Assembly (NCBI GenBank): GCA_903828255.1
Contig: CAIKLQ010000436.1
Span: 1-33,254 of the forward strand
Reading direction: 5' to 3'
DNA length: 33,254 bases
From: an uncultured Verrucomicrobiota bacterium
Lineage (GTDB): Bacteria; Verrucomicrobiota; Verrucomicrobiia; Limisphaerales; JADLHS01
Part shown: one piece after another, positions 11,978-32,350 of the stretch
Numbering within the stretch: the first letter of the stretch is position 1
Layout: every line of letters begins with the position of its first letter
Translations under genes and position numbers: made by a program
The notes under the pieces: model-generated
Told to the model about the DNA's origin: nothing
Database searches by the model: none
The model's input: the letters and a program-made list of their open reading frames with translations, nothing else

Positions 11978-13051
11978 TCAAAACTGTTTCAAGAACCGCA
12001 CGTCGTTTTCGTAGAAGAGGCGGATGTCGTTGATGCCGTAGCGGAGCATGGCGATGCGCTCAATGCCGAAGCCGAACGCCCAGCCGGTCCAGACCTCGGG
12101 ATCGTAGCCGACGGTCTCGAAGACCTGCGGATGCACCATGCCGCAGCCCGCAATCTCCAGCCAGTCCTTCCCCATCTTCTTCACCAGCGCGTTGGTGAAG
12201 TCAATTTCGTAGCTCGGCTCGGTGTAGCTGAAATAGTGCGGGCGAAAGCGAATTTTCACATCGCTGCCCATGAGTTCCTTGAAGACGAATTCCACCGTGC
12301 CTTTGAGATCGCCGACGGTCACGCCCTTGTCCACGTAAAGGCCCTCGATCTGGTGGAAGGTCGGATTGTGCGTGGCGTCGGCGTTGTCGCGGCGATACAC
12401 GCGACCCGGCACGATGATGCGGACGGGTGGCGGCTGCGATTGCATAACGCGGATTTGGACGGAACTGGTATGCGTGCGGAGGAGCAGTGAGGCAGGCGTC
12501 TCGCCTACCGACGCCCCACTGGCCGGCCCGGTTGGTGTCAGCTTGCCTTCAGGCGAGGACGCTCGCCCCATTAAATAAAACGTGTCCTGCATGTCGCGCG
12601 CAGGATGGTCGGCGGGCGTGTTCAGCGCGTCGAAGCAATGATACTCGTCCTCAATCTCCGGCCCATCGGCGACGGCGAAGCCGATTTTGCGGAAGGCGCG
12701 GACGATGTCCTCGGTGACTTGCGTCAGCGGATGCAGCCGCCCGAGCGCGCGGCGGCGTCCGGGCAACGTGAAATCCGTCGGCTCCTTGGGCCGGGCGGCG
12801 GCGAGCTCGAGTTCCTCGCGGCGGGCGGCGAGCGCGGCTTCGAGTTCGATCTTGGCGGCATTGATCAGTTTGCCAGCCACCGGCTTCTCTTCCTTCGGCA
12901 GCGAGCCGAGTTGTTTCATCAACGCGGTGAACTTGCCATGCGGCCCGATCCACGCACCTTTGGCATGGTCAAGCGCGGCGAGATCTGGCGCGGCTTTAAG
13001 CTCCGCGAGCGCGGTTTGTTTCAATGGTTCGATGTCGTTCAGCAAGGACAT
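11978..13051 (-). CDS. pheS: Phenylalanine--tRNA ligase alpha subunit
   Basis: A 357-residue PheS, the catalytic subunit of class II phenylalanyl-tRNA synthetase. The N-terminal coiled-coil tRNA-binding arm spans about 1-90. Class II motifs follow: GPEIEDEYHCFDALN, motif 2 region RVYRRDNADATHNPTFHQIEG, and motif 3 GWAFGFGIERIAMLRYG. The start is ATG 13051. Residues 161-189 are an extra low-complexity stretch (begins MGRASSPEGK) between DTFYL and LRTHTSS, which normally lie only a few residues apart. Its DNA is palindromic repeat, described separately, and the frame is kept on both sides. pheT is not adjacent; the next gene downstream, 124 bases away, is the phasin-like gene. Function should be intact if the loop is tolerated. 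Confidence 0.97.
   Translation of the reverse strand: MSLLNDIEPLKQTALAELKAAPDLAALDHAKGAWIGPHGKFTALMKQLGSLPKEEKPVAGKLINAAKIELEAALAARREELELAAARPKEPTDFTLPGRRRALGRLHPLTQVTEDIVRAFRKIGFAVADGPEIEDEYHCFDALNTPADHPARDMQDTFYLMGRASSPEGKLTPTGPASGASVGETPASLLLRTHTSSVQIRVMQSQPPPVRIIVPGRVYRRDNADATHNPTFHQIEGLYVDKGVTVGDLKGTVEFVFKELMGSDVKIRFRPHYFSYTEPSYEIDFTNALVKKMGKDWLEIAGCGMVHPQVFETVGYDPEVWTGWAFGFGIERIAMLRYGINDIRLFYENDVRFLKQF
12488..12571. repeat. Palindromic repeat inserted in frame in pheS
   Basis: About 84 bases (28 codons) with two hairpins: AGGCG TCT CGCCT at 12494-12506 and GGCGAG GACG CTCGCC at 12552-12567. It separates two parts of PheS that are almost adjacent in other family members, without breaking the frame. 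The hairpin-rich, GC-rich composition is that of a dispersed intergenic element. Confidence 0.75.
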
Positions 13052-21404: not shown

Positions 21405-21487
21405 AGGCGTGCTGCGCGTTGCGTGCTGCATCAAGCGGCAGGCCACCGCCCCGCAAGACTTGACGCAAACGCAATACGGAACACGCC

Positions 21488-25555: not shown

Positions 25556-25590
25556 GAATGTTCGGCGTTCGATGTTGGATGTTGGATGCT
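25556..25590. repeat. Dispersed repeat containing GATGTTGGATGTTGGAT
   Basis: The 21 bases at 25568-25588 are identical to 30572-30592, inside the YdcF gene. They consist of short direct repeats of GATGTTG. The same element thus occurs in an intergenic and an intragenic position. A partial inverted copy lies at 25513-25536. Confidence 0.75.
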
Positions 25591-25607
25591 CGCCGTTTTC
25601 CCATCAG

Positions 25608-26561: not shown

Positions 26562-26757
26562 AGGTTCACGCGGAATTGTGGCCGACCGCCCATTCTCAGA
26601 TCGAGGATGGCAGACATGGCCACCGGGGCCCTTGCCGGAGTTGGGATTAAATTCTTCCAAGACACGCGAGGAAGTTACCGGGGTTTGGTGTCGACGCAAG
26701 CGGGGAGAGGCGGGTTGGGCGAGCTTATCGATGAATTCGGCGAGTGATGTTGCGGCA

Positions 26758-27490
26758 TCAATCAGAAGCCCCGGCTGGTGGGAGCAATTGGGTAAGCCTT
26801 TGGTCAGCGGTAAACTCGCCGAAGAAAAGGGAAAGCATCAAGGTCGCTTGCAGGGAACGAATGCCGCTGCACGCCTTGTCAATGCCCACGCTGCCGGTGG
26901 TCAATTCGATGACGTTGCCGTGCTGCATCGCTGGAATGCCGATCCAGCCCAGAATTTCAATCGTCAACGCCGTGTCCATGCGCGTCAATCCTTGGATAAC
27001 GGGATGCTCGATGCCGTAAGGCCAGGGAACGGCCACCAAGAATAAACATACTGGGAAGACGCACTGCGCCAAGCGCGTCGGCCCCAGCGCACCCCCCCCC
27101 CAGCAACCTAAACCCGATGACCTGCCCGGCGAGCGCCCAACTGACCAAGGCCCACTCCGGGCTGGCTTCCTAGATCAACCGCGTCGGCGCGTACAGCAGG
27201 GCGCAGAGCGCAAATAGAAGATAGAAGATGGGAGTTGGGAGATCGCCGACAAAAGATGGCGGTTGGCAGATAGCAGATGCCGGACGGGCGCTACCATCTC
27301 CGATATCCGATCTTCGATCTCCGGCGCTCATGCGCTCCCAGAGCAAATACACACAAAGAAACGGCACGGACCAGCCGTAGGCATATTGCGGATTTGGGCT
27401 CCACGGCACCCGGAGGTGGTTGATGAGCAACCCCCAAAGATACAGCAACGGCAAAACGCCGAGCACCCAGCGCCAAGTTATACGTAACAT
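26758..27490 (-). pseudogene. Exosortase (EpsH-like), decayed
   Basis: Three frames together reconstruct an exosortase, a polytopic membrane cysteine transpeptidase that processes PEP-CTERM proteins. The N-terminal part (27490 to 27173) has WVLGVLPLLYLWGLLINHLR, QYAYGWSVPFLCVYLLWER and APTRLI, then TAG at 27170-27172 where Gln (CAG) fits. The next part, EASPEWALVSWALAGQVIG, runs into a G10 run at 27102-27111, after which the sequence continues in another frame: GPTRLAQCVFPVCLFLVAVPWP, QHGNVIEL and the catalytic-Cys motif GIDKACSGIRSLQATLMLS. It ends soon after FFGEF, before the conserved Arg and His of the active site. Codons about 55-92 are dispersed-repeat DNA inserted in frame. It is almost certainly inactive unless the assembly is at fault. 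Confidence 0.85.
27205..27328. repeat. Repeat-derived insertion inside the exosortase gene
   Basis: This stretch is made of near-repeats of short words (ATAGAAGATAGAAGATGGG, GGCAGATAGCAGATGCC, TCCGATATCCGATCTTCGATC) with inverted symmetry. It is translated as DRRSDIGDGSARPASAICQ in the exosortase frame, between two recognisable exosortase segments. Confidence 0.7.
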
Positions 27491-28451: not shown

Positions 28452-29768
28452 TCACGCGTCGAGTCTCGGCGGTTGACCGACAACCTTGCCGCGCATCAAC
28501 CCCATCCAAACGCCGGCGCCCCAGCACAGATGCAACGTGGCAAGGATGACGGGGAGCAAGGCGAAGCGGGTGAAACACAGAGGGCGGAGCGCGGAGGGCG
28601 GAAGTGTGATTTGGGATTGGCGATTTCCGATTGGCGATTTCTGACCAGAGGAATCTCTGGATTGGTGGTCGCCGTGGTGGGTGAGAAACAAAGTCACAGT
28701 GGCGACTGAAAGAAAGCAAAGGTAGGCGGCGATCAGGATGCAGCAGGCGATCCGTCCTGCCTCGCTAAAAAGTGCCGTCAGCCCGCACAACGCCAGCGCC
28801 GCCACGAACAGCGGCGGAATCAAATGGCGCACTTTGAGGGACCCGCCCTGGGAGCGAACGAAGCGCCCTTTCCAGTTGCCGTAGCGCCAATACTGCCGGG
28901 CCAGCGCCCCGAGCGTGGAGCGAACGTAATACTTTGCCCGCAGCCAAGGCAGCAACATGATCCGGCCACCGGCGGAGCGAAGCCGATGGTTAAACTCGTA
29001 ATCCTCGTGACAAACGAACTCTTCGCGAAACAATCCCACCCGTTCGAAGGTCCGCCGGTGAATCGCCCAAAACGGCACCGTGTCCGTCGGCACTGGTGTC
29101 CAGCCCGTCTCAAGAATCCGATACGGCGAATTTCCCACGCCGAATTTTGAACTCATCGCGACAGCGATGGCTTCTCCCATCAACCCGCACCCAACCGAAT
29201 CCCAAGCCCCGCCCACGGCGAGCAAGGCGGAGGGCGGAGGGGGAGTAAGAGTAGGAGATGAGGGATTCGACGCCTCACCCGCAGCCCTCACCCCCTGCCC
29301 TTCGCTATGTATGTTTGATTGTGCCTGATTACCCTCACTCGGTCTGCGACCACCCTCTCTCGCTCCCGCGGGCGAGGGACCTTGGGCGAGAATGGCGTCG
29401 GACTCTGCCCGATCGAGGCGGAGAGCGGGTTCAGCCTGCGCGCTGGCCAGACACACGACGCACTCGCGGACGTAGTTTGGCGGAATGACCCCATGTCCAT
29501 CCACCCGCACGATCACCTCCCCGCGGGATTCGCGGATAGCCAGGTTCAAGCCCGCGGGCGTGATCTGCTTCGGATTGTCCACCATCCGCAAGCGTGAATC
29601 CGTCTCGGCCAACTCCCGCACGATCTCCCGCGTTCCGTCCTCCGACATCCCGTCCGCCAGAACCACTTCAATCAACTCCCGCGCATAGTCCTGTTGCAGG
29701 ATCGCCGTCAGGACCTCGCGAATCGTCGCCGCCTCATTGCGCACCGGCAAGATGATGGAAACAGTCAT
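28452..29768 (-). CDS. Family 2 glycosyltransferase (ExoA-like) with repeat insertions
   Basis: A 438-residue GT-A fold glycosyltransferase for exopolysaccharide extension. TVSIILPVRNEAATIREVL opens the nucleotide-sugar domain, followed by the acidic motifs LADGMSEDGT and EVIVRVDGHG. CHEDYEFNHRLRSAGG and ARQYWRYGNWKGRF complete the family pattern, and two to three C-terminal membrane helices anchor it (FVAALALCGLTALF, CILIAAYLCFLSVATVTLFL). Two extra in-frame stretches interrupt it: about residues 111-190 (Pro/Gly/Ser-rich, ALRLDRAESDAILAQGPSPA onward) and about 365-398 (GQKSPIGNRQSQI). Other members pass directly from the first part to GCGLMGEAIAVAMSSKFGVG. The ATG at 29768 matches the family start; upstream codons read HRNTETP, which is repeat-derived. 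Confidence 0.9.
   Translation of the reverse strand: MTVSIILPVRNEAATIREVLTAILQQDYARELIEVVLADGMSEDGTREIVRELAETDSRLRMVDNPKQITPAGLNLAIRESRGEVIVRVDGHGVIPPNYVRECVVCLASAQAEPALRLDRAESDAILAQGPSPAGAREGGRRPSEGNQAQSNIHSEGQGVRAAGEASNPSSPTLTPPPPSALLAVGGAWDSVGCGLMGEAIAVAMSSKFGVGNSPYRILETGWTPVPTDTVPFWAIHRRTFERVGLFREEFVCHEDYEFNHRLRSAGGRIMLLPWLRAKYYVRSTLGALARQYWRYGNWKGRFVRSQGGSLKVRHLIPPLFVAALALCGLTALFSEAGRIACCILIAAYLCFLSVATVTLFLTHHGDHQSRDSSGQKSPIGNRQSQITLPPSALRPLCFTRFALLPVILATLHLCWGAGVWMGLMRGKVVGQPPRLDA
28575..28676. repeat. Repeat-derived insertion 2 in the glycosyltransferase gene
   Basis: Contains GATTTGGGATTGGCGATTTC and the following GATTGGCGATTTC, a short direct repeat, plus GGGCGGAGCGCGGAGGGCGG. It is translated as the SPIGNRQSQI-containing loop between two membrane helices. 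Related words occur intergenically at 28316-28333. Confidence 0.7.
29199..29438. repeat. Repeat-derived insertion 1 in the glycosyltransferase gene
   Basis: About 240 bases (80 codons), kept in frame. It contains CTCGCTCCCGCGGGCGAG (7-base arms, 29356-29373), purine-rich and pyrimidine-rich runs and GGCGGAGGGCGGAGGGGG. The encoded segment is low complexity and absent from the normal family pattern. It looks like several nested dispersed elements. Confidence 0.7.
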
Positions 29769-29962
29769 CCAGTAGAAACTAACGGGTGTCTCGGTGTTTC
29801 GGTGGTCCAGCGTTTCAGAAGCAGAAGGATTCATGGCGATAGATCAGGCCGCCCAGAATCCGGCCAACCCCCGCCAACCGTTCAAGCAAGCCTTGATGCT
29901 CGATGACCGCGAGAAATTCGCAAGCGAAAGCCACTGAATGACCGGTTCACCGATACACCGCC

Positions 29963-30901
29963 TCACCGTCCGCCGTCCTCTGCCTTCTGTCCCCTCACCG
30001 CCTCCCACAACAGGCCCAGATACTCGTGCAGGGCGCGTTCGCTGTTCTGGAGATTGCCCGCACTGGGAAACAGATGGCCCGGGCTGAAGACCGACGGCGT
30101 TACCGTGTCCACAAGGTAACCGCTCGGAGCTGGCACGGCGTTGACACTGTGCCGGTGCGCCAGCACCATCGCGCGCGGCAAATGGGAGGCGGAGGAAACC
30201 AGGATGACGCGGTTCGTAGTCACTACCTGCCGACACCAGACGACTTCATCTTCGGTATCCCGCGCCGTCGCGCACACCTGCACCGCGTTGGTTGCCATCC
30301 CAAATATGAGCAACAACTCTCTCAACACCCGAATTTTCTCCTCGTCCGGCACGGCTGACCCGGAAACTGAAACCAATAGAGTGGTGTTGGGAAACAGCCG
30401 ATGCAAGCGGACGCCTTCGAGCAAACGCTGCAACGATTCGTCGCTCAAACGGGCTGCGGGCGGGCGGTTGGTATCAGCGGACAATCCCGAAGCCGAAAGC
30501 ACCATGATGAAGCTTGGCGCTCCGTCTTCCCCCTTCTGTCTTCCGCCCGAGTCCACCGGGATCCCTCCCGCTTCGATGTTGGATGTTGGATGTTGGTTGT
30601 TCGATCTTCCCCGCAAGCCGCCCGCCGTCCCTCCGTCCCCAGCCTTTTGTCCCCTGCCCACTGTCCCCTGCCCACTGACTCCCAGCACCGCCGGATACCG
30701 GGCTTCCAAATGCCTGAGCGCCAACCGCGGTAGCCAGGGATAGCTGAAGGCCAGAAGGAGAAGGGTGCCGGTGATGACCAAGCCGCGCCCGGTCCTTTTC
30801 CACCGCGTGAAGTTCCATACCCCCAGCCCCAAAAGCAAAAACCCCGCGCAGACCGGCACGGGAAAAAGAAAACAGGGAAGGAGTTTCTTGAGGAAGAACA
30901 C
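29963..30901 (-). CDS. YdcF/ElyC-like DUF218 membrane protein with repeat insertion
   Basis: A 312-residue protein from GTG 30901. Two N-terminal membrane helices (CFLFPVPVCAGFLLLGLGVW, GLVITGTLLLLAFSYPWLP) precede a DUF218 domain: RLLEGVRLHRLFPNTTLLVS, ATARDTEDEVVWCR, NRVILVSSASHLPRAMVLAH and SERALHEYLGLLW. Family members act in envelope polysaccharide or cell-wall metabolism, and are common in exosortase/EPS loci. Residues about 76-130 are an inserted stretch with NNQHPTSNIEAGG; its DNA includes the 21 bases also present at 25568. The insertion directly precedes the first strand of the domain (FIMVLSASG), where family members usually have DAIVVLGGG. The C-terminal tail RGQKAEDGGR is also repeat-derived. 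It may still fold. Confidence 0.85.
   Translation of the reverse strand: MFFLKKLLPCFLFPVPVCAGFLLLGLGVWNFTRWKRTGRGLVITGTLLLLAFSYPWLPRLALRHLEARYPAVLGVSGQGTVGRGQKAGDGGTAGGLRGRSNNQHPTSNIEAGGIPVDSGGRQKGEDGAPSFIMVLSASGLSADTNRPPAARLSDESLQRLLEGVRLHRLFPNTTLLVSVSGSAVPDEEKIRVLRELLLIFGMATNAVQVCATARDTEDEVVWCRQVVTTNRVILVSSASHLPRAMVLAHRHSVNAVPAPSGYLVDTVTPSVFSPGHLFPSAGNLQNSERALHEYLGLLWEAVRGQKAEDGGR
30512..30676. repeat. Repeat-derived insertion in the YdcF gene
   Basis: About 165 bases containing the GATGTTGGATGTTGGATG element (30572-30592, identical to 25568-25588) and direct repeats of CCCCTGCCCACTG near 30652-30678. The DUF218 frame is preserved across it. Confidence 0.75.
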
Positions 30902-31301
30902 AATTCAAAAGCGGAAACTTGGAAAGCAGAAAGCAGACGCTAGAGGGCAGATTGAAGGCTGAAGAGGGCGACAAGTCGCCGGCGGAAAAGCGGAGATAAG
31001 TCTCCGCACTCCAAAGAAGGCGCGGGCTCCAGCACGGCAGAAACCGTGGCCAGGTGAGCCGCAACGAAACAAACCAACTGCCCTGACCCGCCACCGATCT
31101 CGGTTCGTGAATCACGCGCCACCGATCCACGCGCAACCACCAATACGGCGCTAGTTTCCCTTCCCGTCGTTTGCGGTCACCCTCGTCGTGGGTCAGTCCC
31201 AAGTGCGGGTTGATTTCGCCGCCCAACTACTCCGCCACGCCTGACAACGGTTGGGGCAAACGGCGCAGGCCCACAAGCATCGCGCTTGCCGCGTTCCCTA
31301 A
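30902..31301. other. Intergenic region made largely of repeats
   Basis: No gene with a recognisable domain. It holds one copy (30943-31054) of the 112-bp dispersed repeat and, at about 31060-31230, a long minus-strand open frame with Arg/Trp-rich sequence that I do not recognise and would not call a gene. Confidence 0.55.
30943..31054. repeat. 112-bp dispersed repeat, copy 1
   Basis: About 94 percent identical by eye (seven differences) to 32216-32327, in the same orientation. It contains the palindromes GCGACAAGTCGC and GCGGAGATAAGTCTCCGC. The two copies lie on either side of the VanZ gene. Confidence 0.9.
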
Positions 31302-31787: not shown

Positions 31788-31807
31788 CCTATACTGTTCG
31801 CGGTTAT

Positions 31808-31914
31808 AGATTGAGCTTTTCGCTCGCCCATCGGTTGGGGTGGGAACGGCCCGTCCCTATTGGTTTTTTGCAACCAGGGACGAGCCGTCCCCACCCCGAC
31901 AAAAAGCTCAATCT
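31808..31914. repeat. 107-base imperfect palindrome, MITE-like
   Basis: AGATTGAGCTTTT at 31808-31820 is the exact reverse complement of AAAAGCTCAATCT at 31902-31914. Inside, GGGGTGGG and ACGGC at 31837-31850 pair with CCGT and CCCCACCCC at 31886-31897, and CGTCCCT pairs with AGGGACG near the centre. No open frame and no obvious target-site duplication. It lies 20 bases upstream of the VanZ start. Confidence 0.88.
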
Positions 31915-32037
31915 GGGCCCGCGCGAAGTATTGCTGCTCTTCCTCATTTAGAACTTAACGCAAAGACGCCAAGAGGCAAAGCCGCGCGGCCATTGACCAA
32001 CTCCACGTCCACACCACCACGCAACCCCTCACCCTGA

Positions 32038-32064
32038 CCCTCTCCCCTTCCGAAGGGGAGAGGG
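32038..32064. repeat. Hairpin with 13-bp perfect arms
   Basis: CCCTCTCCCCTTC at 32038-32050 pairs with GAAGGGGAGAGGG at 32052-32064 around a single C, so the folded form would open a few pairs at the tip. Confidence 0.8.
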
Positions 32065-32182: not shown

Positions 32183-32207
32183 GGTTTTCGGCGCGACGCC
32201 GAAAACC
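32183..32207. repeat. Hairpin with 11-bp perfect arms
   Basis: GGTTTTCGGCG at 32183-32193 pairs with CGCCGAAAACC at 32197-32207 around the loop CGA. No T tract follows. Confidence 0.8.
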
Positions 32208-32215
32208 ACACGCCG

Positions 32216-32327
32216 GAGGGCAGATTGAAGGCTGGAGAGGGCGACAAGTCGCCTGCGGAAAAGCGGAGACAAGTCTCCGCACTCCAAAGAAAGCGCGGGC
32301 TCCAGCACGGCAGAGACCGTAGCCCGG
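32216..32327. repeat. 112-bp dispersed repeat, copy 2
   Basis: Second copy of the element at 30943-31054, same orientation, offset 1273 bases. It carries GCGACAAGTCGC and GCGGAGACAAGTCTCCGC, the latter a perfect palindrome arm pair around ACAA, so compensatory differences between the copies can be checked. Confidence 0.9.
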
Positions 32328-32350
32328 TAGTCCGCGAAGAAACCGCGCTT

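Follow-up and report, generated by a model that had tools for sequence, protein, structure and literature searches.

Four genes of the window, by which is meant the whole 33,254-nucleotide stretch analysed here, contain segments that their homologues either lack or replace with unrelated sequence. The window is contig C436 of a fragmented 8.9 Mb assembly (G000, the host genome; 1053 contigs, 6.33% contamination), from an order sampled across at least 62 families. The genes encode the alpha subunit of phenylalanyl-tRNA synthetase (PheS), a family 2 glycosyltransferase (GT2), a YdcF/DUF218 protein and an exosortase, and the extra segments that the original prediction had described in them are confirmed as real. 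As it had also claimed, the frame is intact in three of the four, being open in GT2, YdcF and PheS, and interrupted by a stop and a frameshift in the exosortase. Insertion of dispersed repeats in frame was borne out, because homologues lack the segments and the same elements occur elsewhere in the genome. The view that the segments are all of one kind with the intergenic repeats stood only in part: they are dispersed repeats, but rather than a single system they comprise at least three classes, namely degenerate arrays of 7-bp words, GTAG-type REP palindromes and CCCTCTCCC-type triplex motifs.

GT2 (28452-29834, minus strand; 460 residues in an open frame, identified by Pfam PF00535 and translation) carries two such segments. 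The larger is a 213-nt in-frame insert (29217-29429, minus strand) with a triplex-type motif (CCCTCACC/CCCTCTC..GCGAGGG), adding approximately 71 residues: in BLASTP comparisons, relatives' homologues match residues 25-135 and 207-372, with a single residue separating the two stretches. The smaller is an in-frame heptamer array with 7- and 14-bp periods (28577-28656, minus strand), composed of the words GAGGGCG and GATTGGCGATTTCC and encoding QKSPIGNRQSQITLPPSALRP, whose approximately 25 residues fall where homologues are gapped. A 48% similar copy of the 213-nt insert lies in frame within an exosortase on contig C123 of the host genome. In this second exosortase gene (L012, G000:C123, 5629-7422, minus strand), the relative of the GT2 insert spans 66 residues.

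The YdcF/DUF218 protein (29963-30901, minus strand; 312 residues in an open frame, identified by Pfam PF02698 and translation) contains an in-frame insert of heptamer words at 30521-30691 (minus strand), recognised through comparison with homologues and corresponding to about residues 71-127, approximately 57 in total. Within it are GATGTTG heptamers at 30572-30605 and two copies of TGTCCCCTGCCCAC at 30648-30677. The 21-base element TTCGATGTTGGATGTTGGATG, predicted to be identical inside YdcF and in a spacer, does occur as exact copies at 30572 in this insert and at 25568 in an unstranded spacer array of GATGTTG (25558-25595). At the position of the YdcF insert, the homologue of G010 carries another heptamer array. 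The exosortase gene (26750-27490, minus strand), delimited by tblastn with the genome's second exosortase, is disrupted twice, through an in-frame stop at approximately 27170-27172 and a frame change at approximately 27090, near a C tract. A repeat search found two heptamer arrays in its reading frame (27195-27324, minus strand), and the sequence of the matching loop differs in the paralogue on C123.

The pheS gene (11978-13051, minus strand), assigned by Pfam PF01409 and PF02912 and by matches to E. coli 7n8y and other PDB entries, contains an 87-nt in-frame linker (12485-12571, minus strand). Its approximately 26 residues (about 161-186) are missing from E. coli PheS, between chain residues 160 and 162 of 7n8y. 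This insert is a decayed REP palindrome (GGCGAGCGTCCTCGCC ... GGCGAGACGCC) with no heptamer array. It does not form a GTAG pair, as its tags have decayed (ATGG.. / ..CACTG) and its arms are imperfect, and it is called REP-derived because of its similarity to the PheS insert of the sister genome G004 only; the G004 insert closely resembles REPs flanking a RAYT transposase gene. An AlphaFold model of the window's PheS (mean pLDDT 53) was left out of the analysis.

Further repeats were observed elsewhere in the window. A palindrome-rich 141-bp direct repeat containing GACAAGTC lies on either side of a VanZ-like gene (30930-31070 and 32203-32343, 89% identical), and may be another REP-like family or the ends of a moved unit. 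At 31791-31931, a 30-nt inverted repeat (AAAAGCTCAATCT...) surrounds GGGACGAGCCGTCCC-type palindromes, and looks like another dispersed hairpin.

Heptamer arrays and triplex motifs across genomes

The GATT word GATTTCCGATTGGCGATT has 39 sites in the host genome, against two for its reversed control. In 310 kb of relatives' loci, selected for reasons other than repeats, a period of 7 was found at 28 sites, compared with 0.3 in codon-block shuffles, although the sample includes approximately 3 kb from the YdcF locus of the window itself, the source of two of the 28 matches; a period of 14 was found at 15 sites in the same sample (0.7 in shuffles), and any other period at no more than 10. In 381 kb of arbitrary host-genome contigs, 7 and 14 were the clearest enriched periods that are not multiples of three. 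Many words are involved (GATTKSC, GATGTTS, CAACACG and CTCCAAA among them), most without G tracts of three to four, and some are common to the order and beyond, with arrays of GATTKSC forming at least 118 stretches in many phyla. Organisms sharing these repeats include some named Verrucomicrobia. A suggestion that array words are unusually free of stop codons was abandoned, because the words had been picked by hand, in part from coding arrays.

Arrays often occur as inverted pairs, both in other phyla and in the family of the host, and those within genes are not palindromes. In Acidobacteriota, Chloroflexi and others, pairs of inverted GATT-type arrays surround short unique cores (L152, L160, L180, L209, L217 and L219), from which heptamer-armed hairpins may be widespread among phyla. 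One hairpin is restricted to the host's own family. Three consecutive CAACACG units have 35 sites in the host genome and 30 in G001, with none in the control; among 38 genomes they occur in G000, G001, G003, G004, G007 and G036, and are nearly absent otherwise. In G000 and G001 these arrays form the arms of a hairpin with the structure (CGTGTTG)n CGTCAAG, a variable loop of 22-26 nt, then CTTGACG (CAACACG)n, the core of which has 33 copies, all in this family, with 0-2 per genome for the reversed control. A diverged copy, found by matching this pattern, lies unstranded in the window at 21408-21485 (CGTGCTG..ATCAAG, a 23-nt loop, then CTTGACG..GGAACACG), in the spacer of a FIST gene and an MFS gene. 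Half of the hairpin, CTTGACG(CAACACG)3, is present in frame in the PheT of the host genome.

Arrays are also present in other conserved genes. A total of 66 were found in local host-genome contigs, some of which had been picked for the GATT word. They lie in frame inside Pfam matches to GatA, RsmA, MidA (three arrays), MiaA, RibD, Sua5, PurL and PheT, as well as class-III and DegT aminotransferases, an AMP-binding enzyme, MmgE/PrpD and an exosortase. Compared with solved structures, the GatA and PurL arrays are clear insertions. Those of RsmA, parts of MidA (including its second array) and the second array of PheT add little or no length relative to solved homologues, and therefore some arrays overwrite a native loop rather than being inserted into it.

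Triplex motifs, with CCCTCTCCC..GGGAGAGGG order, have 147 sites in the host genome and none in the control, and reach 239 sites per genome. Triplex formation by their DNA is putative. A motif search located an unstranded spacer copy of this type (CCCTCACCCTGACCCTCTCCCCTTCCGAAGGGGAGAGGGG) in the window at 32028-32064, where a hairpin is present with CCCTCACCC on its other side. The motifs occur in PheS of G003, G193, G048, G062 and G184, with a related form in the GT2 of the window; in G193 the full order of CCCTCTCCC, loop and GGGAGAGGG, then GGGTGAGGG, is found, with a near form in G184.

Shared sites in PheS and DnaE

The PheS linker, defined as the sequence from DTFYL to LLRTHTS, ranges from 6 to 47 residues in 83 sequences of the order. 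At one codon position it consists either of 6-10 residues, or of heptamers, REPs, triplex motifs or unclassified sequence. Automatic classification gave 26 short, 15 heptamer, eight triplex and seven REP linkers, with 27 unclassed, one row (L125) having been reassigned by eye from triplex to REP. The 57 long linkers have excesses over codon shuffles at lags of 7 (z = 9.7) and 14 (z = 6.2). Heptamer words vary by lineage: the G001 array includes the exact CAACACG 21-mer, one of 30 copies in that genome, and the G028 array is the sole exact array of its word in G028. REP-type palindromes are present in the window, G004, G005, G013, G183, G160 and G063, that of G013 being a GTAG inverted pair (GTAGCGCAGGCGTCC ... 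GATGCCTGCGCTA).

A PheS tree from which the linker had been excluded required at least 19 changes between four classes, this tree being weakly supported (12 starred branches of 80). Congeners differ in their linkers: the window has a REP and G001 a heptamer array; G048 and G062 have triplex motifs where G092 and G123, respectively, have heptamers; and G007 has heptamers where G009 is empty. Hence relatives do carry segments at similar positions, which had been expected to count against insertion if the segments were the same, but the sequences are not: this is one position with many unrelated elements, and PheS is an insertion trap.

REPs are themselves dispersed, GGCGAGACGCC having eight copies in 763 kb, with one for the control. 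A strict GTAG...CTAC pattern yielded no pairs in the local contigs, and REP cores were searched instead. Inverted cores flank RAYTs in G004 (L415), G005 (L416) and G002 (L417), and cores lie on both sides of a RAYT in G008 (L419). Within the host genome, the only RAYT of the REP-flanked class is distant (36% identity) and without these REP flanks. A different type of RAYT, with AGCCGTGGGTG..CACCCACGGCT palindromes on both sides, adjoins an orthologous GATGTTG array in G003 (L356, G003:C430) and the host genome (L357, G000:C215). The idea that such adjacency reflects RAYT-driven movement of heptamers was rejected, because both arrays sit in the same orthologous spacer, upstream of a DUF58-type gene.

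In DnaE, the linker preceding IRFGLAAIKG is usually 9 residues in relatives, as against 15-60 in the longer forms. The 36-residue linker of the host genome contains a clean GTAG...CTAC REP pair (GTAGGACAGGCGTCGCGCCTGTC ... GACAGGCGCGACGCCTGTCCTAC), and other REP pairs occupy DnaE of G058, G063 and G107. In three relatives a RAYT lies in frame inside DnaE (L416, G005:C37; L442, G002:C148; L418, G013:C74), with its junction at the site of the host's REP pair. In each, one open frame extends through the RAYT (Y1) homologue into the helix-hairpin-helix domain, starting in the polymerase finger domain or, in G013, at a contig edge. The G005 RAYT scores below the reporting cut-off of the Y1 model and is matched by a RAYT query at 59%; REP cores lie on both its sides, where the contig reaches. 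A full RAYT gene was also observed in frame within a DEAD/Helicase_C_2 helicase (L417, G002:C22), another inside a gene with a weak UDPGP match (L415/L373, G004:C323), and a RAYT reading frame itself contains REP pairs in frame (L380, G004:C74, 1141-2271, minus strand). Pfam domains of the host protein are found on both sides of the RAYT in DnaE and the helicase.

Between the congeners G005 and G002, the flanks of the DnaE insertion have dS of 0.28 and 0.43, compared with 2.05 for the RAYTs, a value near saturation, with 35% of their residues different. This disparity argues for separate arrivals, or for replacement at one site, and judged from these sequences the RAYTs apparently reached the two DnaE genes independently. 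DnaE is a second insertion trap. The DnaE-borne RAYTs have intact HVH and Tyr motifs and open reading frames, and single-stranded DNA is exposed at the replication fork. It is conceivable, if unlikely, that the DnaE loop is a true landing site for RAYTs, and that a RAYT within the replicative polymerase would be an active, fork-tethered transposase spreading REPs with replication. A literature search of incomplete coverage found no description of a RAYT in frame inside DnaE.

Proposed origin of the extra segments

The best explanation (probability approximately 0.8) for dispersed repeats that lie in frame, that are lacking in homologues, that share their sites with unrelated elements and, for REPs, that are associated with RAYTs in relatives, is that they entered coding genes at positions tolerant of extra residues. 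REP pairs would be non-autonomous elements, presumably mobilised and inserted by RAYTs, and heptamers and triplex motifs may arrive through insertion or template-switch copying. Most entries would be destructive and purged by selection, with in-frame events in tolerant loops passing this filter. Because tolerant loops are few, the same codon positions of PheS, DnaE and YdcF hold different, unrelated elements across relatives. A resident repeat would probably then be a landing pad for the next, via recombination or REP-targeted transposition; in DnaE, such a pad would apparently explain how entire RAYT genes came to lie in frame at one and the same site in two congeners and a third relative. 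Gene conversion within such a site is indistinguishable from a new insertion. As a description of the elements, selfish or passenger DNA fits best, their effect on the protein being near-neutral. Counting against this general picture are the 27 of 57 long PheS linkers that were left unclassed, the weak support of the PheS tree, the G028 array with its unique word, and the arrays that replace native sequence.

Heptamer arrays might instead grow in place through polymerase slippage from a chance short repeat, without transfer of sequence, in which case the length of 7 bp would stem from the polymerase itself; Mrazek and colleagues have proposed this (cited in PMC4679880 and PMC4692102). Heptanucleotides are the commonest repeat unit of 5-11 nt in most surveyed genomes (PMC4679880), neighbouring units in one hairpin arm share variants (CGTGCTG CGTGCTG, CGTGGTG CGTGGTG), some arrays add no length, and the uniqueness of the PheS array in G028 speaks against its having simply been copied from a family resident in that genome. 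Slippage is nevertheless doubtful as the main source, given that three CAACACG units are common within the genome and family yet nearly absent outside six of 38 genomes, that this exact 21-mer is also in PheS of G001, that arrays bear the conserved CTTGACG core, even in the PheT of the host, and that another exact 21-mer is in both YdcF and a spacer. Nor can slippage produce the REPs and triplex motifs found at the same sites. Insertion and in-place slippage can both operate, on different arrays.

That the segments are ancient native linkers turned low-complexity, resembling spacers only in composition, is very improbable. Thermus PheS (1b70) aligns in one stretch across the region, and therefore the PheS loop is naturally variable; the 27 unclassed linkers also favour this origin. 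However, the dominant period of 7 is no codon period (z = 9.7 against codon shuffles), DnaE holds a clean palindrome ending in GTAG and CTAC, and congeners have unrelated sequence. The fragmentation of the host assembly into 1053 contigs, with 6.33% contamination, might suggest that chimeric MAG contigs join repeats to genes, but such an artefact is scarcely credible when dozens of independent assemblies have open frames that continue through the inserts, the junction is identical in all, and congeners agree outside the linker.

If repeats entered genes at tolerant positions, then the essential genes of one order would constitute a record of the repeats active in each lineage, with the flanks providing the tree, and the loop the insertion history. 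Comparisons of sister species could thus be used to test the mobility of REPs, heptamers and triplex motifs, a task that rapidly evolving spacers make difficult. The sequences further suggest that inserts, even ones as large as an entire transposase, can be accommodated by a replicative DNA polymerase and an aminoacyl-tRNA synthetase, and such tolerance would offer protein engineers natural permissive sites.

Comparison with known repeat systems

The parallel drawn by the original prediction with the palindromic elements of Rickettsia (RPEs; 105-146 bp palindromes, as described in the review PMC2229807, which names Ogata 2000) holds for behaviour, as these repeats are likewise found in spacers, and in frame in many conserved genes that tolerate them. 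Membership of the RPE family would be conjectural. Set against that description, there are several unrelated classes here, including non-palindromic heptamer arrays, one codon position is reused by different elements, and RAYT genes were identified. Nor is a comparable system in Verrucomicrobiota wholly without precedent, since intragenic REPs have already been reported in Opitutus terrae. The same study of GTAG-tagged REPs and RAYTs (PMC3733652) describes REPs in R. conorii dnaE and in tRNA synthetases, and one shared REP site, in recB of two Xanthomonas. The elements described here have the same GTAG- and CTAC-ended palindromes, inverted pairs and REPs inside open reading frames, with RAYTs (PF01797) in the genomes and between REPs. 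They differ from those of PMC3733652 in that DnaE and a helicase contain complete RAYT genes in frame, apparently through independent arrivals, and in that heptamers and triplex motifs occupy sites also used by REPs.

The heptamers resemble GGGNATC of Xanthomonas and Nostoc (PMC4692102), TAACTGA of Beggiatoaceae (PMC4679880) and cyanobacterial STRR in being dispersed, degenerate 7-bp arrays, sometimes in inverted pairs. Unlike these, they comprise many words with few G tracts, and include a hairpin with a CTTGACG core; they are also located within conserved genes, whereas coding regions have fewer GGGNATC repeats than expected and TAACTGA occurs mostly at protein ends. The triplex motifs follow the same order (CCCTCTCCC..GGGAGAGGG..GGGTGAGGG) as the intrastrand triplex motifs of E. 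coli (TMECO; PMC4666352), from which they differ in attaining up to 239 sites per genome, and in occurring in frame in PheS and GT2. Intragenic REPs (PMC3733652) and the over-representation of heptamers (PMC4679880, PMC4692102) are already known. The sharing of insertion sites by unrelated heptamer, REP and triplex classes, and the presence of RAYT genes in frame inside a replicative polymerase, appear to be new, as do, as far as could be checked, heptamer arrays within many conserved genes and the CTTGACG heptamer hairpin.
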